A DNA stretch of 64,000 bases, taken from positions 1 through 64,000 of the forward strand of contig JAPKBR010000013.1 in NCBI GenBank assembly GCA_028823345.1. Reading direction: 5' to 3'. Positions 29,622 to 42,758 of the stretch are shown in pieces. The stretch's first letter is position 1. Every line of letters starts with the position of its first letter. Below the pieces are notes generated by a model, which saw only the letters and a list, made by a program, of their open reading frames with translations, was not told the origin of the DNA and ran no database searches. The position numbers and the translations under genes were made by a program. This DNA comes from Planctomycetota bacterium. GTDB taxonomy: Bacteria > Planctomycetota > UBA1135 > GCA-002686595.

Positions 29622-32288
29622 ATGGACCTATCCACCCGTTTTGAGCCCAGCGAGATCGAGGTTGACCTCTACGATCGCTGGGAGGCTTCTGGCGCTTTCA
29701 CTCCCCCAAAGGAGGGCACCCCCGACGCAAAGACCTTTACGGTCATGATCCCCCCGCCCAACGTGACGGGGGTCTTGCACATGGGCCACGCCCTCAACGG
29801 CACGATCCAGGATGTGGTGGTGCGGCATCGCCGCAAGCTGGGTTTTGAGACCCTCTGGGTTCCGGGGACGGACCATGCGGGCATCGCCACCCAAGCGGTG
29901 GTGGAAAAGCGACTCTACGCGGAAGAACAAAAGACCCGTAAGGACGTGGGCCGCGAGGATTTCTTGCGCCGCATTTGGGAGTGGAAGGAAACCCACGGCA
30001 ACATGATCTTGCACCAATTCAGGAGCCTCGGTTGTTCCTGCGATTGGACGCGCACGGCTTTCACCATGGACGATGGGCTTTCCCGCGCAGTTCGAACGGC
30101 CTTCCTTGAACTTTGGAACCGTGACCTGATCTATCGTGGGGCGCGTCTGGTCAATTGGGATTGTGTTCTGCAGACCGCAGTTTCCGATGACGAAATCGAG
30201 TATGAATCGCGCAAGGGAAAACTCTGGCACCTGCGCTATCCCTTGACCGGCAGCGATGAATACTTGGTGGTGGCCACCACCCGGCCCGAGACCATGCTGG
30301 GAGACACGGGTGTGGCGGTCCACCCGGACGACGAGCGTTACAAGCATCTGGTGGGCAGCACTCTGCGCTTGCCCCTGATGGACCGTGAGATCCCAATCGT
30401 TGCGGACGAGAGCGTTGATCCGGAGTACGGTAGCGGCGCGGTCAAGATCACTCCGGGGCACGACCCCGCGGACTATGAACGCGGTAAGCGCCACAACTTG
30501 CCGATCATCAACATCCTGGAGAAGGACGGCCGTATCAACGAAAACGGCGGTTCCTTTTGCGGCTTGAAGCGCGAAGAGGCGCGCAAGAGTGTGGTGGCCG
30601 CATTCGAGGAGCTGGGCCTGCTCGAAAAGACCGAGAGCATCACCCACAACATTTCCCTTTCGGATCGCTCCAAGTCGCCGATTGAGCCCCTGGTGAGCGA
30701 ACAGTGGTTCGTCAAGATGCAGCCCATGGCGAAGCCCGCCATCGCTGCCCTTAAAGAGGGCACGCTGGAGTTCCGGCCCGAGCGTTGGGGCAAGGTCTAT
30801 CTGCACTGGCTCGAAAATGTACAGGACTGGTGCATTTCGCGGCAGCTCTGGTGGGGTCATCAGATCCCTGTCTGGTACGACGAGGACGATGTGCCTGCGG
30901 TTTCCGTGGACGACCTCGAGATTGGTTCTGCACACCCGACCACGGGCAAGCCTATCTGTCGCCAAGATCCCGATGTGCTCGACACTTGGGCTTCTTCGTG
31001 GCTTTGGCCGATTGCCACCCTGGGTTGGCCGGACCAAACATCCTCGGACCTGCAACGCTTCTATCCCACTCAGTTCTTGTCCACCGCATCCGAGATCATT
31101 TATCTTTGGGTCGCGCGCATGGTCATGGCTGGTTATGCCTTCATGCCCGAGGACATGGGCCGCGACCGCAGCCCCTTCAAGACTTGCTACATCCATGCCA
31201 CGGTGCTCGACGCCAAGGGCAAGCGCATGAGTAAGTCCGCGGGAAACGGCATTGACCCCTTGGATATGATCAAGCAGTACGGCGCGGACGCCGTGCGTTT
31301 CAGCCTGTTGCTCTTGACCAAAGAGGGCCAGGATGTGCGCCTCTCCCCGGACCGTTTCGACCAGGGAAGTCGTTTTTGCAACAAGGTCTGGAATGCAGCG
31401 CGGTTCGTGATGTTGAACCTGGAAGGGGAACGCACTGAAACAACCGATGCCCTGGAAGATCGCTGGATTCGTTCCGCTTTGGCCCGAGTGCGGGACGAGG
31501 TCTCCACCTGTCTTGAAGAGTACCGCTTCAACGAGGCCGCAGCCGCCCTTTACCGTTTCGTATGGAACGATTTCTGTGACTGGTACCTGGAGTTGGCTAA
31601 GAGTCGCTTGACTGGTGAAGATGGCCCGGGGTCGGCGTCCGTGCGCGGAACCCTGGTACGCGTCTTGACCGACGTCCTGGGTCTCTTGCATCCGTTCACT
31701 CCGTTCCTGTCGGAAAAACTCTTTGGTGCCCTGCACGAGGTTACCGGCGAGGCCCAGCCAGACATGTTGATCAGTACTCCCTGGCCCGATGGGGAGGGAC
31801 TCGAAATCGACGAGGATGCAGAACGCCAACTGACTCTATTGCAAGAGGCTGTGACCGCCGTGCGGCGGGTGCGGTCCTTGACCCAGGTGGGGGAGCGCGT
31901 GCCCCTGGTCGCTCACATCGCGGCCCCTCGGGAGTCTGATCGAAAGATTTTGACAGCCCTCACGGAGCGCATCTGCCCCCTGGCGGGCTTGTCCGAACTG
32001 AAGATAGCCGAAACCGTCGAGCGTCCTCCTGCCAGCGCTGTCAGCGTTGGATCTGGCTTTGAGATGATCGTGCCTTTGACGGAGGACGTGGACTTTGAGA
32101 AGCTCAAGACCGTTCTTGCCGGTCGCCACAAGAAGGTCGAACAGGGTCTGATGTCCATCGACAAGAAGCTTGGCAACGCGGGTTTCTTGCGTGGGGCCGA
32201 CCCCGAGATCATCGAGAACGAAAAGGCCCGACGAGCGGAATTGGAGTTGGAGCGTGACCTCCTGTCCCGCAACTTGGCGGGGATCTAA
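29622..32288 (+). CDS. valS: Valyl-tRNA synthetase
   Basis: ValRS, 888 residues, charges tRNA-Val and edits mischarged threonine. The class I signatures are HMGH within PPPNVTGVLHMGHAL, and RMSKS within GKRMSKSAGNG. The CP1 editing domain contains the VATTRPETMLGDT and GSGAVKITPGHDPADY motifs. A tRNA-binding anticodon domain precedes a C-terminal coiled coil (about the last 65 residues). The ATG at 29622 matches the family N-terminus (MDLSTRFEPSEIE). An upstream in-frame ATG at 29574 would add 16 untypical residues. Length is normal. Confidence 0.98.
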   Translation: MDLSTRFEPSEIEVDLYDRWEASGAFTPPKEGTPDAKTFTVMIPPPNVTGVLHMGHALNGTIQDVVVRHRRKLGFETLWVPGTDHAGIATQAVVEKRLYAEEQKTRKDVGREDFLRRIWEWKETHGNMILHQFRSLGCSCDWTRTAFTMDDGLSRAVRTAFLELWNRDLIYRGARLVNWDCVLQTAVSDDEIEYESRKGKLWHLRYPLTGSDEYLVVATTRPETMLGDTGVAVHPDDERYKHLVGSTLRLPLMDREIPIVADESVDPEYGSGAVKITPGHDPADYERGKRHNLPIINILEKDGRINENGGSFCGLKREEARKSVVAAFEELGLLEKTESITHNISLSDRSKSPIEPLVSEQWFVKMQPMAKPAIAALKEGTLEFRPERWGKVYLHWLENVQDWCISRQLWWGHQIPVWYDEDDVPAVSVDDLEIGSAHPTTGKPICRQDPDVLDTWASSWLWPIATLGWPDQTSSDLQRFYPTQFLSTASEIIYLWVARMVMAGYAFMPEDMGRDRSPFKTCYIHATVLDAKGKRMSKSAGNGIDPLDMIKQYGADAVRFSLLLLTKEGQDVRLSPDRFDQGSRFCNKVWNAARFVMLNLEGERTETTDALEDRWIRSALARVRDEVSTCLEEYRFNEAAAALYRFVWNDFCDWYLELAKSRLTGEDGPGSASVRGTLVRVLTDVLGLLHPFTPFLSEKLFGALHEVTGEAQPDMLISTPWPDGEGLEIDEDAERQLTLLQEAVTAVRRVRSLTQVGERVPLVAHIAAPRESDRKILTALTERICPLAGLSELKIAETVERPPASAVSVGSGFEMIVPLTEDVDFEKLKTVLAGRHKKVEQGLMSIDKKLGNAGFLRGADPEIIENEKARRAELELERDLLSRNLAGI

Positions 32289-32881
32289 ACCCGGCGTCTC
32301 ATAGCAGCGGGTAAACCGAGTGGTCAGGATCTAGGCCTGGCCTGCAGGCTAGGGGGGTGGGAGTGGTCCGAAGCCCTAGGCACCGACTCGGATATGCCAG
32401 CAGGAGTCGACCGTTCTCGTGATGTTCTGCTTGCCTTGCCTGAGGGGTTTCGGCGATCAAGGAATGGGCAGGTGGATTTTTGGAATAGCACGATTCCTTG
32501 GCCCGAGGCTTCCAATGTGATCTGTAAATAGGAGATTTCAGGCTCGTCCATCAGCTAAGGCTCTCAGGCTCGGACTGTTGAAAGTGAAATGTTCACTTCT
32601 CAGCTGGCCCCGGCCTGAGGCAAGTCTCCACATTGAAGGATCAGAGATTGCTGGCCGTGCTATTGTCTAGACGCTGCGAGCGGTCGGGGTGAAGGTGGGG
32701 TAGGCTAATTGCGTGCCTCAGAATGAGGTATGTTGGATTCGGTGTTCTGGGGCGCCCTTTGCTCTTTTTTGGTAATGGGTGGCCTGTTCCAATGGTTTTG
32801 ATTGCGTTTTTGGGCGCTTTCAGTTCCACTCGTTTTTGTCTGATCACGGCCGGTCTCTACCCTATTGCCCATAAATCTCTC
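32289..32881. other. 593-base intergenic region, AT-richer, with inverted repeats
   Basis: This is the longest gap in the window. No credible gene is present; an in-frame extension of the next gene to 32723 is not protein-like. A bulged inverted repeat at 32330-32351 (CTAGGCCTG/CAGGCTAG) could be the valS terminator stem but has no T-tract. AAGTGAA/TTCACTT lies at 32582-32598 and CCTCA/TGAGG at 32716-32728. The composition is more AT-rich than the housekeeping region, and the boundary of the unusual region falls here. Confidence 0.5.
32582..32598. promoter_or_regulatory. Inverted repeat AAGTGAA-N3-TTCACTT
   Basis: A perfect 7-bp inverted repeat with a 3-base spacer, about 280 bases before the exported-protein gene at 32882. 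The geometry (17 bases, AT-rich half-sites) suits a dimeric regulator. There is no T-tract, so it is not an obvious terminator. No matching regulator is encoded nearby. Confidence 0.35.
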
Positions 32882-34978
32882 ATGAAAATTCTACAGACTT
32901 TGGCGGTACTCTTCATCTCGGCCTCGGCTCATGCCCAGGGCGACGACTGCGCTAATGGAGTTCCGGTGAGTGGAACGGGCTCTTGGAGCTTTGACACAAG
33001 CCTTGCAACCGTTAGTGGTTTTTCTGGTGGTGCGATTTGCAGTGATCTAAGTTCGCAGGATATGGGGCCGGACCAGTTTTTTGAGTGGACCGCCAATGCT
33101 GCTGGAACATGGCAAATAGATACTTGCGGGTCCTCATTTGACACAAAGCTCAGCGCGCACCTCGGTTCTGGCTGTGGGGCAACCTGTGAGGAGCACAACG
33201 ATGATGGGTTCTGTGGATCCTTCAATAGTGAGCTAGTTCTCGCGGGCGTCAACGCCGGAGACACCTTCTTGATTCAAGTCGGTGGCTGGAACGGTGCAGC
33301 GGGACCTGGGACCTTGAACAGCTTAAATTTAGCTCCGGTAGGCGCTGGGGACGACTGTTCGAGCGCAGGCGTGATCGGCGGGTACGGAAGTTGGGCCTTC
33401 GATACGTCCAGTGCCAGCGCAAGCGGATTCAACGGTTCTTCAGGGTGTGCGGATACCGGATCCATCGATCTTGGACTTGACCTTTTCTATCAGTACACCG
33501 CTGCGGTATCCGGCGACTTTGAGGTCAGCCTGGGCAATTCGGATCCTAACTACGACACCAAGCTTAGCGTGCATGCTGGCTCCGGATGTGCCGCGACCTG
33601 TTTGGCTTTCAATGATGACTATTACGGGCTACACAGCTCAGTGGTGATTGTCGGTGCAATTGCCGGTGAGACGTTCCTCTTTCAAATTGGCGGTTGGAGC
33701 GGATCCTTCGGGGCTGGCACTTTGGAGGTCCTCGCTTACACCGACCCGTGCGCATCGTTCAGCGATGATTATCTGGAGGAGAACGACACCCCGGGAGCCG
33801 CTGCCCCCCTGGGCCCAGGCACTCACAGCGATCTCAATGTGCACATCAATGACTCTGACTTCTATTCCTTCACGCTCCAGCCCGGTGACATCCTAGATGT
33901 GGCCATCACCGCATTCAGCGATGACCTTGACCTGAGCGAGTACGACGGCGCTGGCAACTGGGTTGCTGATTGGGATACCGATAGCCTGACCCACTCCAAT
34001 GTGACAGGTGCGGTGGAAACATGGATCGTAGAGGTTCGCGACGACCCTGCATTTGGGGCCGATTGCAGTGCCTACGACCTGATAGTGGGGGTGGTTCAGA
34101 ACCCCTGCCTTTCTACCGCTGACGACTCTTTTGAGGACAACGACACTTGCGCCACCGCAGTGCCTATCACGGACGGGCTATACTTGGGCTTAATGGTGTT
34201 TGAGGGTGTCGATCTGGACATGTTTAGCCTGACGGTGCCCGCCGGAGCCACGCTTCACGTGACCGCTTACAATCCCGGAGGTTGCGCCGCCGCTGATGTG
34301 GACATGTTCCTTTATGATGTGGCCGCCGGCTTTTGTCAGGATGACCCCGCAGTTGACGCGGCTAACACCGGAGAGCTGGCCAGCGCATGGACCTGCCTCG
34401 ACTACGAGTTCCTAAGCTGGACGAATACCACCGGTTTGGGTGTCGACTGTCTCCTGCGCGTGAGCGTTTGGCCCCAGGCACCGCTGAATGGCTGCCAAGG
34501 TTACGACTTGACCATTTCGGGCATCGGCGGTGGACCCGACCTGTTCTGTGAGCCAGCAGAGGTAAATTCCGCAGGGACTGCGGTCAGCCTAGGGACATCG
34601 AGTTTCTCGGGCCCACTAGCCTTCCATCTGGATGCACTGGGAGGACCCGTGAATCAGTTCGGGTACTTCCTCGTGTCTGCTGCCAAGATGGATCCCGGTG
34701 TCAGTGTGAGTGACGGCAAGTTCTGCCTGACCGCACCCCTTGGGCGCTACGGGCCTAATGCGGGCGCGAGCCTGAACTCACTCGGAAGGTTCGACGGGGC
34801 TGGAATCTTCCAGAACCTGGCGGGCACTTCGGCATCTGGTTCCGGGTTTGACGTCCCCTCTACTCTTCCCGCGCCCCCCGGGGGGATGATCTTGGCGGGA
34901 TCCACCTGGCACTTCCAGCTTTGGTATCGCGACGGGGTCAGATCGAATTTCTCAAACGGGATCTCCGTGTTCTTCTGA
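32882..34978 (+). CDS. Modular exported beta-protein with two paired repeats and PPC-like domains
   Basis: A 698-residue exported protein. MKILQTLAVLFISASAHAQ is a signal peptide cleaved after AHA. Two homologous units of about 130 residues follow: each starts GDDC and contains GSW-FDTS, FDTKLS/YDTKLS, a Cys-rich turn and a VGGW-G/IGGWSG end. Next come two units beginning DDYLEENDT and DDSFEDNDT, the hallmark of bacterial pre-peptidase C-terminal (PPC-like) beta-domains. The last 140 residues form a domain ending GSTWHFQLWYRD, which I recognise from planctomycete exported proteins. No catalytic motif is visible, so surface binding is inferred. Base composition is AT-richer than the housekeeping genes. 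Confidence 0.82.
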   Translation: MKILQTLAVLFISASAHAQGDDCANGVPVSGTGSWSFDTSLATVSGFSGGAICSDLSSQDMGPDQFFEWTANAAGTWQIDTCGSSFDTKLSAHLGSGCGATCEEHNDDGFCGSFNSELVLAGVNAGDTFLIQVGGWNGAAGPGTLNSLNLAPVGAGDDCSSAGVIGGYGSWAFDTSSASASGFNGSSGCADTGSIDLGLDLFYQYTAAVSGDFEVSLGNSDPNYDTKLSVHAGSGCAATCLAFNDDYYGLHSSVVIVGAIAGETFLFQIGGWSGSFGAGTLEVLAYTDPCASFSDDYLEENDTPGAAAPLGPGTHSDLNVHINDSDFYSFTLQPGDILDVAITAFSDDLDLSEYDGAGNWVADWDTDSLTHSNVTGAVETWIVEVRDDPAFGADCSAYDLIVGVVQNPCLSTADDSFEDNDTCATAVPITDGLYLGLMVFEGVDLDMFSLTVPAGATLHVTAYNPGGCAAADVDMFLYDVAAGFCQDDPAVDAANTGELASAWTCLDYEFLSWTNTTGLGVDCLLRVSVWPQAPLNGCQGYDLTISGIGGGPDLFCEPAEVNSAGTAVSLGTSSFSGPLAFHLDALGGPVNQFGYFLVSAAKMDPGVSVSDGKFCLTAPLGRYGPNAGASLNSLGRFDGAGIFQNLAGTSASGSGFDVPSTLPAPPGGMILAGSTWHFQLWYRDGVRSNFSNGISVFF

Positions 34979-35085
34979 GAAAACGCTCTCCCCAACTGAT
35001 TCTCCATTAGGGCCCTATGAGCCCTGGGCAACGAACCCACCGATTGAACTCACAAAGCTATTCCGACCCAGCCTTTCTATCAACA

Positions 35086-37266
35086 ATGAAACACTCGCCT
35101 TATCGCCCACTGCTCTTGATTCCGATTCTGGTGGGCCTGAGCCCCACTCTCGCGGCTCAGTCCATAGACCCCAATCACCCCGGGATACTCGGTCCGGTCC
35201 TCTCTGAAATAGAGGGATCTCCGGTGCGTATTCCCCATACCGACCAAGCCACTGGAAGCCAGCAGAATAATCTGGTTGGACCGGTGGTGTCCAATGATGC
35301 AAATGGGGAGCTAAGCCTCCTCGGTCATCCTATTACGGAAGTGCGCAGCCCGAATGCTGCGATGCGTGATGCCTTGCGTGAATTGTCGATCGCTGCCGGT
35401 AACGGAGATCAGCCTGGGATGCAGGCCGCTGCCTCGGAGCTCGAGAGTATTTTGCTTGGGACCACCGAGGGCCGTATCTACGACGGCTTCCCAATGTTGA
35501 ACTACAACCAGAGTATCGCTGCCCCTGGGCAGGTGCCCGGCGAATACAAGATGAAGATCCTGACTGACACAGGCCTAACTGAGCCCGGGCTCGGGGGAGG
35601 ATTCGGAACTCCTCGCAAGATCTGGGAAATGGATGTGAACTACCTGTGGTACGACGGCCAATTTGACAGCGATACGTTCTTGTTCAAAGTGCCCATTGGT
35701 GCGCATCCCATGGACACGATGCGAATCAACTACAAGATTTACTCCTTGGTTTATGAGGAGTTTTCGCCCACCACGGTCATGCTGGATTTCCGTTACACCG
35801 GTGGGGTCAACATGCCCTTCAAGGGCTTTGATTCGGTGTGGCAAGCGATCGACAGGGACTCCGTTACGGAGCTCACCGTTGCACACCCCCCGGTCGGGAT
35901 GACCCGTGGCGTGTACAACTGGGGTTGGACGGTTCACCCTCCACGGATTCAATTTCTGCAGCCGGTTTACGAGATGGTGAATGGTCACACTGGAGCGCTG
36001 CAACTCGAGCCCCAGGGCTTCAGCTTTGCGGAACGCAACCGGACTCTCTCAATTGAGGGAATCGGCACGGCGGCTCCCGAGAAGAAAATGTACCAGGTGG
36101 TGCAAGCGGTTCTCTTAGGTGCGGGTGCCGGTGACATCCATGCGATGCTCAACGAAGAGGACTCGGGGCCTAGGGGCACTTGGCAGCAATGGTGCCATCT
36201 TGCGAAGTACCAGCGTCAGCTTCCTCCTGAGGCTAGAGATATCTTGACTTCAGAAGGCATTGGGGCCGGTACATTCGGACCCTATGACTTTGTCACGGTG
36301 TACCTGAACAATGAAATGTACGGAGCCGGGCCCGAGGGGGAATTTATCGAGGGCTGGAATCAGGGCGATCGCAAGAACGTCAAGGTGATCAACTTGGACA
36401 GGCACAGCCATTACTACCGGGTCGTCGATTTTGGTCCCAAGTTGCATGACGATATCGTGAACGGCTTCTCTGCGGGTTCGGAGAGCTTTGAAATCATGAA
36501 TTTCAAGCCCGCCTATGGGGCTCCGAAAGTTGCGGAAATGCAATGGCGTGCCGGCTGGGGTTTTAGGCCCCACTTGGATGTTGTTCAGCAACCCGACGTG
36601 TTCCCACGCCTGGGTGACCAACGGAAACTAACAGCCTTCAGCGACGGAGCCGGCCGCCGCCGGATGGGGTACAAGTTCGCAGATGTTGCGGGCGGTGAAT
36701 TCCGCTTCAACCCGCCCGGTTTCATTATCGGTTCGGTTGCGAATCCGAGTGCTTTTGGATTGAAGGAGGCTGACGGCAGTCCCGGCCTTGCGATTGGCCA
36801 GCTGACCGAGGGCTACGGGATAGCCAAGATGTGCTCTCACCGGAATCACCCCTTGGGTGGATTCTGCGGGCGTGATTTGGCTCCTTACAACCCCTGGGGT
36901 TTTTACAACCGCGACACGGATGGGGACGGCGTCAATGATGAACTTTGGTTCCCTCCCTTCCTGCGGAACCCCAACCCGCGAGAAGGGGGAGACATTATTC
37001 CTCCCACTCGGGCGTGGAAACCTTTCCTATGGATCAATCCCAACAATGGAACCCTTTTCATTGATCCCGCGAATCCCGATGCCGGTTATTGGGCGGATCT
37101 GACCTATTCCCATGGGCGGCCCATTCCGTCCGAGACTTCGGTGGACGTGATCATTGAGATGCCTAGGGCCGGGGGGCAACTGTTCTACCAGTTCGATGAC
37201 CTGTTCCATGACAATTCGATTTTCTCTCCTCACCCCACCTTTGCGGAGCCCGTTCAGGGCGGCTGA
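35086..37266 (+). CDS. Unrecognised 726-aa exported protein next to multicopper oxidase
   Basis: I do not recognise this family. The protein has a signal peptide (MKHSPYRPLLLIPILVG...TLAAQ, cleaved near residue 25) and no further membrane segments. It is unusually rich in Trp, Tyr, His and Met, with DRHSHYYRVVDFG and MCSHRNHPLGGFC as candidate metal or cofactor sites. D610-TDGDGVND-618 is a thrombospondin-3/EF-hand-like calcium loop. The ATG at 35086 is chosen for the signal peptide; an upstream ATG at 35017 would bury it. It precedes the multicopper oxidase by 59 bases on the same strand and is very likely co-transcribed with it and the SCO-cytochrome gene. Partner or scaffold of that oxidase is my inference. 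Confidence 0.85.
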   Translation: MKHSPYRPLLLIPILVGLSPTLAAQSIDPNHPGILGPVLSEIEGSPVRIPHTDQATGSQQNNLVGPVVSNDANGELSLLGHPITEVRSPNAAMRDALRELSIAAGNGDQPGMQAAASELESILLGTTEGRIYDGFPMLNYNQSIAAPGQVPGEYKMKILTDTGLTEPGLGGGFGTPRKIWEMDVNYLWYDGQFDSDTFLFKVPIGAHPMDTMRINYKIYSLVYEEFSPTTVMLDFRYTGGVNMPFKGFDSVWQAIDRDSVTELTVAHPPVGMTRGVYNWGWTVHPPRIQFLQPVYEMVNGHTGALQLEPQGFSFAERNRTLSIEGIGTAAPEKKMYQVVQAVLLGAGAGDIHAMLNEEDSGPRGTWQQWCHLAKYQRQLPPEARDILTSEGIGAGTFGPYDFVTVYLNNEMYGAGPEGEFIEGWNQGDRKNVKVINLDRHSHYYRVVDFGPKLHDDIVNGFSAGSESFEIMNFKPAYGAPKVAEMQWRAGWGFRPHLDVVQQPDVFPRLGDQRKLTAFSDGAGRRRMGYKFADVAGGEFRFNPPGFIIGSVANPSAFGLKEADGSPGLAIGQLTEGYGIAKMCSHRNHPLGGFCGRDLAPYNPWGFYNRDTDGDGVNDELWFPPFLRNPNPREGGDIIPPTRAWKPFLWINPNNGTLFIDPANPDAGYWADLTYSHGRPIPSETSVDVIIEMPRAGGQLFYQFDDLFHDNSIFSPHPTFAEPVQGG

Positions 37267-37325
37267 GCCGGACATATGCCGATCTCCTTCACCAAACTCC
37301 ATTCCACCTATACCTCCCCTTCACT

Positions 37326-40256
37326 ATGAAACGTTCTCCGAGTTCAAACAACGTGCCTACGCGAGCCTTGCAAGTTGGGTTTCTTTGTATTGCAGGTGTT
37401 TGTTTTGCAGTTCCTCTGTTGGGCTACTTTGGCCCCGGAGTCGGTGACCCGTCAGCCTGGACGGACTTGGTCATTGGTAGCGACCCTCACGACGGTCCTG
37501 AGGACATGATCGAGGGGACCTATGAAGGGGGCATCACCGGCACCCACGATGATACGACTGAGAATAATTCTCAAGATGGCAGGAACAGCATGCGGGGAGC
37601 TTGGAACATCCCCACTGGTGGTGTTCCCAGCCCTCTCTATGGGGCGGTTAGTTTTTCCCAGCAAATGTTTCGTTTCGAGGAGTTTGGCCCAGCGCCCATT
37701 GACTCAGCCCACCCCCCGGGGCTGAGCTTCCCTGCTCCGCCAACGAGTCAAGGTACACCCGATGGTGCCGCCCTGGACGCGTTCTTAGATCAGGGGCTGT
37801 ACCCGGCACCTACCGTTGCAGCCAACACCACGGACCAGAATCCCTGGAAGCCGGAAATTGAGGCATACCTGGGATACCCCTTGCCCGAGTCTCCCGCAGA
37901 GGGGCGTCCGCCCGGGGAAGGTTGGGCGCACCAGCGTTGGGACGAGTTCCGACCGCAGGTGGCCTTCAACACCGCACAAGCTGGCGCCAGAACCAATAAT
38001 GGCATGCGGGACCACCGTCAATTGCACGGCTACCATACGGGCGAATTCGGTCCCGGGGGGCTGTATCACAACACTGCCGGTATTCCTGCAACAAGTGGTA
38101 CGACTGCTGGCATTGACATTCGATTCCACCCGGCCATGCCGATTCAGCACCCGCATACCCTTTGGACTTGGGACGGCACCTTTCCTCCCAAGCTGCTGAA
38201 TGCGCGTTATGGAGAGTCGCTCATCATGCGGCATTACAATGCGCTGCCCATTGATATTGCAGCCAATCGCGGATTCGGTGCGCACACTATCTCGACTCAC
38301 GAGCACAACGGGCACAACCCGGCGGAGAGTGACGGTTACTTCAACGCGTTCTTCTTCCCCGGCCAGTTCTATGACTACCGCTGGCCGATGCTCCTCGCGG
38401 GTCACGACTCAATCAACACTGATGCGACTGATCCGAGAGCAGGGAGGCCTGACGGGAGTGGTGGAATCATCAATGTTCCCGGTGACTACCGTGAGACCAT
38501 GAGCACCCACTGGTTCCATGATCACATGCAGGACTTCACCGCGCAAAATGTCTATAAGGGCAACGTGGCGATGATGAACTATTACTCATCGATCGACCGA
38601 GGAAACGAAGTTGTCAATGACGGCATCAACCTGCGCCTCCCCAGCGGAGACAAGCTCGATTGGGGCAACCGCGACTATGATGTCAACCTGGTGATGGCCG
38701 ACAAGGCCTGGGACGACCAAGGCCAGCTTTGGTACAACCCGTTCCAGAACGACGGCATGTTGGGCGATCACCTGCTGACCAACTGGCTCTACCATCCCTA
38801 CCTTGATGTGCGTGCGCGCCGTTATCGGTTCAGGATCTTGAACGGCAGCGTTGCGCGTTACTATAAGTTTGCTCTGGTGAAAAAGGTTGACGGTAAGAGT
38901 GGAGCTATGCAAGGCCCCTATGGTTCCGGTGTCTCCTATGACCGCGTTCCTTTTCACCTGATTGCGAACGACGGCAACATCATGGGCCATGCGATCCCCA
39001 TGGACGGGACATCTGGCCTGCTTGCGGCCGAGCTCCCCGTGATAGGCATTGCCGAGCGCTTTGACATTGTCGTTGATTTTAGTCAGTTCGCTGAAGGAGA
39101 GACCCTCTACTTCGTCAACCTGCTGGAGCACTTCGGAGGTCGCGCTCCTGAGAGCCCGATTCCCTTGGAGAGCATCCTGAGCGAAGACTACAAGGGCGTT
39201 GCCACGGATGTGGATGGCGATAGCATTGCGGACCGCTACGATGGGGGGGATCCCGCAGTGGGGCGCTTCCTTGAGTTTCGAGTCAAGGCCATGCTGCCTG
39301 GGGTACAGGATAACTCAATCGACCTCGCCGACTATGAGCCTGGCGGGCTGATGTTGGCGCGGCAACCCACTTTCACCGCGGCCGAACTAGCGAATGCCCG
39401 CCGCAGGGAATTCCAGTTTGGGCGTACCCAAAGCACAGACGGAACCCCTTGGGTGGTGCGGACCCTCGACGGAGATTTCAATGCGGATGCGCGCCGGATC
39501 ACGGCCGCACCCAATGCAAGTGACGTGGAGATCTGGACTATCCGCAATGATACGGGCGGCTGGAGCCACCCAGTTCATGTTCACTTCGAGGAAGGAACCA
39601 TCCTGAGTCGAGGGGGGCAAACGCCTCCCCTGTGGGAACGCTTTGGGCGTAAGGATGTATACCGTGTCGGTCCCGATGAGCACGCGGGGCAAACGGTTGA
39701 GTTTGCGATTCGCTTTCGCGAATTCAATGGTAGCTACATGGAGCACTGCCACAACACGACCCACGAAGACACGGCCATGCTTCTCCGTTGGGACATTGAG
39801 TTCCCCGGTCAAGTCAAGTTGATGCCTTCTCCCTTGCCCACATGGGCCGGCGTGAAGTATGTGGACTCTTTCTCAACGGCGCATTCCCGATCCGGCGATA
39901 GCGTGGGGGCAGGGATGGATCCCCCCCCGTCTGCCGGAGGGCGCGGTGCAAGCACTGCGGTCCTTGCGGGTAATCAGCCGCCCCGGGCCATGCCGGATTC
40001 TGGTCAAGTGGCTGGGGGACGGGGTGTGATCTTGAATCTCCTGACGAACGACAGTGACCCAGACGGCGACCTGGACCTCGGTGGGATCACCATCATCGGT
40101 GACCCCAATGCTGGCATCGTTGAAGTTCTGGGCGCGGGGCGCGTGCGCTACACCACCAGAACGACTGTGGCTGGGTTGGATTCGTTCTCCTATACGGTTT
40201 CTGATCAAGCGGGGAATGTGTCGAACCACGCCACCGTTAGTATCCAGATCCAATGA
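37326..40256 (+). CDS. Large exported multicopper oxidase with C-terminal cadherin/Ig-like domain
   Basis: A 976-residue multicopper oxidase. The four copper-binding blocks are complete: HEHNGH at 325-330, HWFHDH at 395-400, HPVHVH at 748-753, and HCHNTTHEDTAM at 807-818. These give the trinuclear centre and a type-1 site with Cys808, His813 and axial Met818. A signal or anchor segment (QVGFLCIAGVCFAVPLLGY) is near the N-terminus. Residues after about 885 (NLLTNDSDPDGD...FSYTVSDQAGN) form a cadherin/VCBS-like module. At this size it is nearer MofA-like putative Mn oxidases than 500-residue laccases. It oxidises an unknown substrate and reduces O2. The stop overlaps the next start (ATGA). Confidence 0.92.
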   Translation: MKRSPSSNNVPTRALQVGFLCIAGVCFAVPLLGYFGPGVGDPSAWTDLVIGSDPHDGPEDMIEGTYEGGITGTHDDTTENNSQDGRNSMRGAWNIPTGGVPSPLYGAVSFSQQMFRFEEFGPAPIDSAHPPGLSFPAPPTSQGTPDGAALDAFLDQGLYPAPTVAANTTDQNPWKPEIEAYLGYPLPESPAEGRPPGEGWAHQRWDEFRPQVAFNTAQAGARTNNGMRDHRQLHGYHTGEFGPGGLYHNTAGIPATSGTTAGIDIRFHPAMPIQHPHTLWTWDGTFPPKLLNARYGESLIMRHYNALPIDIAANRGFGAHTISTHEHNGHNPAESDGYFNAFFFPGQFYDYRWPMLLAGHDSINTDATDPRAGRPDGSGGIINVPGDYRETMSTHWFHDHMQDFTAQNVYKGNVAMMNYYSSIDRGNEVVNDGINLRLPSGDKLDWGNRDYDVNLVMADKAWDDQGQLWYNPFQNDGMLGDHLLTNWLYHPYLDVRARRYRFRILNGSVARYYKFALVKKVDGKSGAMQGPYGSGVSYDRVPFHLIANDGNIMGHAIPMDGTSGLLAAELPVIGIAERFDIVVDFSQFAEGETLYFVNLLEHFGGRAPESPIPLESILSEDYKGVATDVDGDSIADRYDGGDPAVGRFLEFRVKAMLPGVQDNSIDLADYEPGGLMLARQPTFTAAELANARRREFQFGRTQSTDGTPWVVRTLDGDFNADARRITAAPNASDVEIWTIRNDTGGWSHPVHVHFEEGTILSRGGQTPPLWERFGRKDVYRVGPDEHAGQTVEFAIRFREFNGSYMEHCHNTTHEDTAMLLRWDIEFPGQVKLMPSPLPTWAGVKYVDSFSTAHSRSGDSVGAGMDPPPSAGGRGASTAVLAGNQPPRAMPDSGQVAGGRGVILNLLTNDSDPDGDLDLGGITIIGDPNAGIVEVLGAGRVRYTTRTTVAGLDSFSYTVSDQAGNVSNHATVSIQIQ

Positions 40257-41434
40257 CGATGAAACGAATCATTGCAATAGCCGCTGCTCTAGCCCTCCTC
40301 CCTGGGATTGGGATCTCCCAGGGATCCACTCCTCAGGCCGAGGCAGCACTGTCGAGTCCCTGGGGCTCCACGTATTTCCCCAATGTGGAACTGACGAACC
40401 ACAGGGGTGAAAAGGTTCGGTTCTTTGATGACCTGATCAAGGGCAAGAAGGTGATGATCAACTTCATCTACACCACTTGTGCGGACACATGCCCCCTTGA
40501 GACCGCGCGCCTTTCTGAAGTCGCGGAAATCCTGGGTGACCGTATCGGTGATGATATTTTCTTCTACTCGATCACCATCGACCCCGACCGTGACACGCCC
40601 GAGGTTTTGGCGGATTACCGTGAGCGATTTGGTGTTGGCGAGGGGTGGGATTTTCTGACCGGAAAAGATGAGGACCTTCTTCTTCTGCGAAAGAAACTCG
40701 GCCTCTATGTGTCCGAGGAGGACAAGCTCAATACCGATCATAATGTGAACCTGCTCATCGGCAATCAGACCACAGGGCAGTGGATGAGGCGTACGCCCTT
40801 CGACAACCCCTACGCCCTTGCAGGGCAAATTGGTAGTCGGCTCGGGGACTACCGAGAGGCGCGGGTTGGCGCGGGAGACTATGAAGATGCTCCGACCACT
40901 TTGCCCGAACTGAGTACAGCCGAGAAGCTGTTCTCGACCCGATGCGCTGTGTGTCATCGCATTGGGGTGGGGGATGGAAGAGTTCGGTTGGGTCCCAATC
41001 TTCTGGATGTGACACACCGTCGGGACAAGGAATGGCTCCGTCGTTGGCTGCTGGAACCTGACGTCGTATTGAACGAGGGTGATCCGATCGCGATTCAACT
41101 GCGCAAGGAATACAACGATGTTCCTATGCCCAACCTTGGCTTGATGAAATCTGAGGCAAGCATGCTTGTGGATTTCCTTGAGGTCGAAGGACGGCGGGTG
41201 GCCAAGGTCGAGGGTAACGCCATTCTGAGCGAGCTCCGGCATAAGCCGGTCATGGAGTGTTGCCAGAAAGATGAGCTGGGAACGTTGAAGGACGAACCCG
41301 AGCAGTCTGCCCAAGCGGGCGATTCGAGGGAGACAGGCCCCACCGGTTTGGGCCCGAGGACCCTGCCCTCACTCCTGATGGGGGGCTTCTTCACAGTGCT
41401 GGCGATGCTCATTGGGCGCAAGAAGCGGGTCTAA
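40253..41434 (+). CDS. SCO1/SenC-cytochrome c fusion with C-terminal membrane anchor
   Basis: A 393-residue fusion. A signal peptide (about 1-22) is followed by a SCO1/SenC thioredoxin-fold domain with C76-x3-C80 (TTCADTCP) and copper-ligand His163 (TDHNVNLL). A class I cytochrome c domain follows with heme site C231AVCH235 and probable axial Met292 (VPMPNLG). A second Cys pair (MECCQ) and a C-terminal hydrophobic helix ending in RKKRV close the protein. SCO proteins deliver copper or reduce Cys thiols of copper sites. Fused to a cytochrome and overlapping the oxidase stop by four bases, it probably matures the oxidase and/or carries its electrons. The role is inferred, the domains are clear. 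Confidence 0.93.
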   Translation: MTMKRIIAIAAALALLPGIGISQGSTPQAEAALSSPWGSTYFPNVELTNHRGEKVRFFDDLIKGKKVMINFIYTTCADTCPLETARLSEVAEILGDRIGDDIFFYSITIDPDRDTPEVLADYRERFGVGEGWDFLTGKDEDLLLLRKKLGLYVSEEDKLNTDHNVNLLIGNQTTGQWMRRTPFDNPYALAGQIGSRLGDYREARVGAGDYEDAPTTLPELSTAEKLFSTRCAVCHRIGVGDGRVRLGPNLLDVTHRRDKEWLRRWLLEPDVVLNEGDPIAIQLRKEYNDVPMPNLGLMKSEASMLVDFLEVEGRRVAKVEGNAILSELRHKPVMECCQKDELGTLKDEPEQSAQAGDSRETGPTGLGPRTLPSLLMGGFFTVLAMLIGRKKRV

Positions 41435-41450
41435 CCCCTCCGCGCGGTCC

Positions 41451-42758
41451 CTAGTCCGCCAGCATCCCCAGCAAGCGGTCTAGCACCCTTCTCCCCGCGA
41501 CGCGTAGGCCGTTGTGCTCTAGCTCGTCGGTTTCCCAAACCTGAAGGTGGGGGATCTGCTGGGCGGTTTCGAGGGACAGGTCCCGCGGGACGTACATGTC
41601 GTCGGTGTAGACCGCGGCGGCGGCAGGGACTTGGTTTTGAGCGAGAGCTTTTGGATCGTAGAGCTGGGGCCAGTCGGTCTTGGCAGCCAGGAGTTGGGCA
41701 GCATCCTTGATCGGTCGCAGGGCGCCGATTTCCTCGAACATGAAGGGATGGATCATTTCACCGTTCAGGTAGCGCAAGGGGCCGGGGCCCTCGGGGAAGC
41801 CCGGGAAGTTCTGGGCCACCGTTTGGGCGGCCCAATTGCTGGGGGCTTGTTGGGTGTAACAGGCCTCGTGCAGCACGGTGAAGAGCGGGTGGTGGTCGTG
41901 CAGGATCGCGCGCTCGTAGGCCCGCAAGAAAGCCCTGTCGGCGGGACCATCAGGGGACGCGGCGGCGGTCTCCAGCAGGTAGTGCAGGGCTTCGAATCCG
42001 TCGCCCATGCCGAGCCCCAGGCCAACCATGGAAAACCGTTTGGGCGTCAGACGGTCTCCGTCGGTCAGGCGAATGTCTTGCTCTTCCAATTGGGCATAGA
42101 GCTTGGTTAGGCATTCGGCGTCCTTGGGATAGCGCTTGAACCATTTGTCGTGCTTGCCGAGGCAAATCGGATAGGTGCGCGTGTAGACATCTTCGGCGGT
42201 GGCGGTCAGGCCGGGGATGCCGCCGGTGAAGAGGACTGCCGAGAGGCCTTCGGGCGCGCTTGAGAGGTAGCGCATGTTGCAGAACCCGCCGTAGCTTTGG
42301 CCCAGAGAAGTCCATGATGCGCCACCCGTGAAGTGCGGGCGCATGATTTCCAGGTCGCGCACGATGGAGTCCGAGCGGAAGTTGGCGAGGTAAGCGGCTT
42401 GCTCGACTGCACTGCCCATGCGCGCCACGCGCTCTGCTTGGATGGGGGTGCTGAGCCCCGTACCCCGCTCATCGGGAAGGAGTACATGGAACTGCTCGAG
42501 GGCACGTCCTAGCCAACCGCTGGTGTCCATGGGCCGCGGGGCCTCATAGCCTGGGCCTCCCTGTAAGAAAATCAACCAAGGTCGATCTTCCTCTTGGGCG
42601 CCAACGGCACGCACCTCACGGGCGAAGACTTCGATCTTTGGGCCGGCTGGATCGGCGTGATCCAGGGGAGCCTCGAACCGGTGGCCGCGGGTGACGATGC
42701 CGGCGAATTCAGCGTTCGGGTCGCTGCGTAGGGGGGCGAGTGGGGAGGGGATAGGCAC
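41451..42758 (-). CDS. Prolyl aminopeptidase-like alpha/beta hydrolase (S33 family)
   Basis: A 435-residue alpha/beta hydrolase of peptidase family S33. The oxyanion motif GGPGYEAP is followed by DERGTGLSTP and the nucleophile elbow GQSYGG (Ser). Catalytic Asp and His are plausible in YTDDMYVP and LEHNGLR. Proline iminopeptidases remove N-terminal proline from peptides. No signal peptide is visible, so cytoplasmic action is likely. The GTG at 42758 is the best start; no ATG is near. It converges on the SCO-cytochrome gene with only 16 bases between the stops. Family secure, peptide specificity inferred. Confidence 0.9.
   Translation of the reverse strand: MPIPSPLAPLRSDPNAEFAGIVTRGHRFEAPLDHADPAGPKIEVFAREVRAVGAQEEDRPWLIFLQGGPGYEAPRPMDTSGWLGRALEQFHVLLPDERGTGLSTPIQAERVARMGSAVEQAAYLANFRSDSIVRDLEIMRPHFTGGASWTSLGQSYGGFCNMRYLSSAPEGLSAVLFTGGIPGLTATAEDVYTRTYPICLGKHDKWFKRYPKDAECLTKLYAQLEEQDIRLTDGDRLTPKRFSMVGLGLGMGDGFEALHYLLETAAASPDGPADRAFLRAYERAILHDHHPLFTVLHEACYTQQAPSNWAAQTVAQNFPGFPEGPGPLRYLNGEMIHPFMFEEIGALRPIKDAAQLLAAKTDWPQLYDPKALAQNQVPAAAAVYTDDMYVPRDLSLETAQQIPHLQVWETDELEHNGLRVAGRRVLDRLLGMLAD

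Follow-up and report, generated by a model that had tools for sequence, protein, structure and literature searches.

A probable McoA-type manganese oxidase module in Planctomycetota pairs a multicopper oxidase with an SCO-cytochrome c fusion

Two multicopper oxidase (MCO) genes of Pseudomonas putida GB-1, mnxG and mcoA, code for Mn oxidases (PMC11409713), a genetic result that reportedly goes back to an original double knockout by Geszvain et al. 2013. In Table 4 of PMC11409713 the mcoA operon is listed as mcoA followed by genes for an SCO1/SenC protein, a diguanylate cyclase/phosphodiesterase, a phosphonate-binding protein, and a phage integrase. Sideroxydans has been described as carrying MCO genes in tandem, along with genes for SCO and cytochrome proteins (PMC5566968). 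Here we describe a related locus in a Planctomycetota bacterium (UBA1135; GenBank assembly GCA_028823345.1, 3.5 Mb), lying in a stretch of 64,000 nucleotides at the start of contig C17 (JAPKBR010000013.1), which we refer to as the window. Three plus-strand open reading frames, the first beginning at 35017 or 35086, are spaced by 59 and -4 bases and code for an exported protein (gene A), an MCO, and an SCO1-cytochrome c fusion (Table 1); a hydrophobicity scan finds hydrophobic export signals at all three N termini. These features agree with a sequence-only reading of the window, which had proposed that one three-gene operon codes for a self-maturing extracytoplasmic oxidase with its own electron carrier. 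Our comparisons point instead to a two-gene unit that is probably an McoA-type Mn(II)-oxidase module with a copper-loading SCO-cytochrome partner, a reading of predicted substrate and mechanism that we place at about 0.66.

The MCO of P. putida KH-21-134 is 52% identical to the window MCO over 962 alignment columns (966 bits), and its partner is 50% identical to the window SCO-cytochrome protein (E=2e-107). Genes at this P. putida locus run in the order MCO (with Big_9), SCO-cytochrome c, GGDEF/EAL, Phosphonate-bd, and Phage_integrase. Because these five genes match the GB-1 mcoA operon in order, there is a strong case from the operon that the KH-21-134 relative is McoA, and because of its identity to that enzyme, whose operon order is as published for mcoA, the window MCO is probably McoA-type and a probable Mn(II) oxidase. 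Mn(II) had been one of several candidate substrates in the sequence-only reading, and the comparison supports it as a leading one. A similarity search of the KH-21-134 genome with the MCO gave a single match and detected no MnxG-like protein, although the presence of mnxG there was not checked. The SCO1/SenC gene linked to mcoA in Pseudomonas is itself an SCO-cytochrome c fusion (locus L121, 11115-12158, and other Pseudomonas loci), and P. putida strain 31303 (genome G296, locus L122) carries three McoA-type MCO genes in three separate places.

Relatives of the window MCO found by profile search, for the most part in metagenome assemblies, come from at least six phyla, including Planctomycetota, Pseudomonadota, Acidobacteriota, Thermodesulfobacteriota, Myxococcota, and Verrucomicrobiota. 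Adjacency was scored for 64 MCO copies from other genomes, those with 3.2 kb or more of sequence beyond the gene's downstream end. The next same-strand gene codes for an SCO-cytochrome protein in 56 of them, across at least six phyla, and for another MCO in five. The oxidase groups with a characterized family, McoA, one of two outcomes that together would have told against the sequence-only reading; the other, a lack of conserved gene order, is not seen. Among 392 Planctomycetota genomes, the MCO (E below 1e-60) and the full-length SCO-cytochrome protein (E below 1e-100) are present in the identical 20, which represent eight genera in two families and so are not 20 independent events. A quick tree (midpoint root, no outgroup) places the window MCO within a 14-member Planctomycetota group, separate from all others (SH-aLRT 99). 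As judged from gene content, the conserved unit is two genes, MCO and SCO-cytochrome c fusion, rather than three, since gene A was not found beside the MCO in any of 78 named relative loci and is present in genomes that lack this MCO. Of the single operon proposed earlier, then, the oxidase-partner pair is kept and gene A falls outside.

The window MCO has a complete set of type 1, 2, and 3 copper ligands, and all 12 are invariant in the 91 aligned MCOs, which bears out the four copper blocks recognized earlier; homology shows it to be an exported protein with predicted type 1 and type 2/3 copper sites complete. The C-terminal Big_9 domain, which the sequence-only reading did not include, is also present in the P. 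putida MCO, and the number of repeats differs among relatives. In the last protein, Pfam identifies SCO1-SenC and a marginal Cytochrom_C, which scores slightly below the family cut-off, but all 73 partners share the heme ligands C231, C234, H235, and M292. The CC motif and C-terminal hydrophobic segment of this protein are likewise additions to the earlier description.

Table 1. Features of the oxidase locus in the window (residue numbers refer to the encoded proteins)
Feature	Position	Strand	Remarks
Gene A, exported Planctomycetota protein	35086..37266	+	Outside conserved unit; possible genus accessory; weak cupredoxin-like fold hint
McoA-type (probable) multicopper oxidase, 976 aa, N-terminal export signal	37326..40256	+	P. 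putida homology; Cu-oxidase_2 E=3.4e-11
Copper block 1, HEHNGH, residues 325-330	38298..38315	+	H325, H327 invariant 91/91
Copper block 2, HWFHDH, residues 395-400	38508..38525	+	H398, H400 invariant 91/91
Copper block 3, HPVHVH, residues 748-753	39567..39584	+	H748, H751, H753 invariant 91/91
Copper block 4, HCHNTTHEDTAM, residues 807-818, type 1 copper with axial Met	39744..39779	+	H807, C808, H809, H813, M818 invariant 91/91
Big_9 (bacterial Ig-like) domain, MCO residues 883-973	39972..40244	+	Pfam E=1.8e-14
SCO1-cytochrome c fusion, 393 aa, N-terminal signal peptide	40253..41434	+	SCO1-SenC E=4.6e-21, Cytochrom_C E=0.0012
SCO copper site CxxxC (C76, C80)	40478..40495	+	Third ligand H163 at 40739-40741; invariant 73/73
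c-heme site CAVCH, residues 231-235	40943..40957	+	Axial-type Met292 at 41126-41128
CCxK motif (C336, C337, K339), candidate Cu(I) site	41258..41269	+	Planctomycetota-specific
C-terminal hydrophobic segment then RKKR, probable membrane anchor	41360..41416	+	Hydrophobicity scan; in most Planctomycetota partners

That the SCO partner of an McoA-type MCO always bears an intact c-heme site is a new observation; the published descriptions of the mcoA operon available to us annotate this partner as SCO1/SenC only. The part that follows the cytochrome varies by lineage. CCxK is present in 29 of 29 Planctomycetota partners and in none of 44 elsewhere, a count that includes close relatives and hinges on phylum assignment, with six of the 29 lacking that label or otherwise labelled (of which at least L051, L054, L060, and L070 are placed in Planctomycetota by genome search). 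Behind the motif come a linker and, in most cases, a hydrophobic C terminus. There are only six cysteines in the window protein, two each in the SCO site, the heme site, and CCxK, and we infer that the CC pair binds Cu(I). A PCu(A)C third domain is carried by 15 of the 73 partners, in four phyla (seven called by Pfam, E 1.8e-36 to 3.5e-19, and eight by a profile made from five of those seven), and there are His-rich tails in some Geobacter-like and gammaproteobacterial lineages and a -CH end in Holophagaceae. Because other lineages append such further copper-binding-like parts, the evidence favors a heme-bearing copper-loading module over a protein that simply takes electrons away from the oxidase. 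An exported oxidase encoded with an SCO-cytochrome partner is what survives of the self-maturing oxidase suggested earlier; the electron carrier probably gives way to copper loading. Triple fusions of SCO, cytochrome c, and PCu(A)C after an McoA-type MCO were seen at loci L058, L073, L077, L082, L090, L102, and L055, in Pseudomonadota, Myxococcota, Verrucomicrobiota, and Acidobacteriota.

We propose that the MCO, like its homolog McoA in P. putida, would oxidize Mn(II) outside the cytoplasm with O2 as the electron acceptor, and that the SCO-cytochrome c protein, with its C terminus probably anchored in the membrane, would load copper into it. The copper would be carried by the SCO CxxxC/His site, with the Planctomycetota CCxK tail as a putative Cu(I) donor site in place of the PCu(A)C domain or His-rich tail found elsewhere, and the c-heme may act as an electron source or sink that keeps the SCO thiols, or the copper, in a redox state fit for transfer. 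PCu(A)C and SCO proteins are described as cooperating in copper delivery, with the Rhodobacter sphaeroides PCu(A)C mainly supplying SCO (PMC9145763). In Mn-oxidizing Pseudomonas, transposon insertions in a TlpA-like thioredoxin gene reduce Mn oxidation, ccmA, ccmE, and ccmF are also implicated, and the title of a study cited in the same paper has the SCO protein ScoI reduced by TlpA (PMC11409713). A partner that is both an SCO protein and a c-type cytochrome would connect the TlpA and ccm findings. We did not find this connection stated in the literature covered, which leaves out most subscription papers, and do not claim that it is unpublished. SCO1 genes are likewise present in the GB-1 mnxG operon, together with a gene for a separate protein that has a cytochrome c domain (PMC11409713); the idea may thus extend to MnxG, and the GB-1 ccm phenotype cannot rest on McoA alone. 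More tentatively, and at somewhat short of even odds, the partner could be a heme-coupled copper inserter dedicated to metal-oxidizing MCOs, combining an SCO carrier with a redox-control c-heme and, in many of the lineages, with a part that donates copper (PCu(A)C, CCxK, or a His-rich tail); the need for heme would then be a reason for the ccm requirement in Pseudomonas Mn oxidation.

Several points weigh against a copper-loaded Mn(II) oxidase. The name McoA was assigned from operon order and percent identity rather than from a direct comparison with PputGB1_2665, and an identity of about 52% could permit a change of substrate. McoA is described as the lesser of the two GB-1 MCO oxidases (PMC11930936). 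Three of the 64 MCO loci have no SCO-cytochrome partner in reach, and Pseudomonas partners lack an appended copper-binding part. Control by MnxS1/S2/R and sigma-54 would be expected of an mcoA-type operon; sigma-54-like sites are at chance level (79 found, 78 expected), as is a sigma-70 promoter scan, and Mn-regulator genes were not searched for. The MCO CutO of Rhodobacter capsulatus needs neither SenC nor PCu(A)C (PMC8456105), so an SCO protein need not load MCOs. It is possible, as a minority view, that the physiological substrate is a different one, with the enzyme acting in Cu(I) or Fe(II) detoxification or on phenolic or bilirubin-type organics, as promiscuity is common among MCOs and the enzyme distantly resembles bilirubin oxidase, CotA, CueO, and PhsA. 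Those enzymes, however, and the solved MCOs in the PDB, score at most 91 bits, compared with 966 bits for McoA, and the curated NCBIfam cut-offs are missed by hundreds of bits (CueO, 78.8 versus 525; PhsA, 80.3 versus 950). An unlikely alternative role for the pair is electron transfer, in which an extracellular metal oxidase passes electrons through the cytochrome c domain to the respiratory chain, in lithotrophic Mn(II)/Fe(II) oxidation or, in metal reducers, in reverse, as proposed for OmpB/MofA clusters. The invariant c-heme site adjoining an exported MCO would suit such a role, MCO/cytochrome/SCO clusters have been put forward as possible genes for extracellular electron transfer (PMC5566968), and there are relatives in Geobacter-like and Geopsychrobacter genomes; but MCOs reduce O2 themselves and require no outside acceptor, and the heme shares its chain with a copper chaperone, to which other lineages add more copper-binding parts. 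MofA was also considered as the closest relative; the operon evidence points to McoA instead, with MofA and OmpB compared by gene arrangement only; no MofB-type peptidyl-prolyl isomerase is adjacent to the window MCO.

We consider it improbable that all three genes are one functional operon with gene A as an essential subunit. Gene A is on the same strand, just upstream of the MCO gene, and its placement within the genus is not random: two sister genomes (G001 and G002) have it about 18-20 kb away from the SCO-cytochrome gene or MCO site, across the ribosomal protein operon, and from this older site the window genome has lost both gene A and the MCO genes. Its absence beside the MCO in the 78 loci and its presence without this MCO in genomes G044 and G205 argue the other way, and a conserved three-gene unit was rejected on these grounds. 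Sequence searches of Pfam, NCBIfam, and the PDB gave no match for gene A, which occurs in 20 of 154 genomes from the order, in several of them only as a partial match. A first structure model had a pLDDT of 34; for a second, partial model (pLDDT 61), almost every top Foldseek match is a multicopper oxidase or another cupredoxin protein, and the ten best matches in the viral library include two viral multicopper oxidases, but the TM-scores are 0.08-0.26, all below 0.3, and the rmsd is 11-21. Gene A has no conserved Cu-ligand pattern and no conserved His pairs, and a profile comparison with the MCO found nothing shared except a DxDxDG loop. It is possibly a copper-free cupredoxin scaffold, a likeness that we keep as a hint from the model, and possibly an accessory in this genus only.

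In sister species the MCO gene occurs in tandem copies, three in each of genomes G001 and G004. Genome G002 has the genes that flank the window block 32289-41450, at 99% identity in protein, but only about 190 bases apart (G002:C47, 4632-4820; locus L198), and the sequence left between them is a 3'-terminal relic of the SCO-cytochrome gene. The nearly empty site had suggested a recent insertion in the window, a reading rejected because of this relic; G002 most likely deleted the block. At the older site in the window genome, near dnaE, the gene A and MCO genes are lost and a short SCO-cytochrome relic remains. The pattern suggests reciprocal loss, each sister species having lost a different one of two copies. 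The neighbors of the MCO/SCO-cytochrome pair, on its two sides, are gene A and the genes for a PPC-domain protein and an alpha/beta hydrolase. The upstream neighbor of gene A (32723-34978) has two PPC (pre-peptidase C-terminal) stretches and is gone with the block in G002. The G+C content is 0.56-0.59 across 32001-42000 and about 0.60-0.63 on both sides.

Planctomycetota, which are common in marine and fresh waters, would join the candidate Mn oxidizers with a specific gene pair. The invariant c-heme and the swapped copper-binding-like appendages suggest how McoA-type MCOs receive copper, and two genetic observations in Pseudomonas, on the ccm genes and a TlpA-like thioredoxin, would be linked to one protein. 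The window pair may be the Planctomycetota version of the Pseudomonas McoA operon and could explain the long-known need for cytochrome c assembly in Pseudomonas Mn oxidation.

The mcoA operon of P. putida GB-1, as judged through strain KH-21-134, is like the window in having an MCO with Big_9 and an SCO1-cytochrome c gene directly downstream. It differs in the GGDEF/EAL, phosphonate-binding, and integrase genes that follow, none of which is downstream in the window, and only the window has the partner CCxK tail and C-terminal anchor, gene A upstream, and tandem MCOs in sister species. In Leptothrix (MofA/MofB/MofC) and Geobacter sulfurreducens (OmpB), an exported MCO likewise clusters with cytochrome c and SCO genes, but these are separate genes there and fused in the window, which has no MofB isomerase next to the MCO. 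CueO, CotA, and bilirubin oxidase belong to the same MCO superfamily and have the same copper motifs, although their size and architecture differ from those of the window MCO. CutO/CutF of R. capsulatus similarly couples an MCO to a co-encoded copper-binding maturation protein, CutF being a small protein with a CxxxC motif and a proline-rich end, in contrast to the SCO-cytochrome fusion of the window (PMC8456105). The SCO and PCu(A)C relay to the CuA site of cytochrome oxidase uses the same chaperone families, which in several phyla are fused with a c-heme into one chain; the relay targets cytochrome oxidase, whereas the target of the partner is probably the adjacent MCO.

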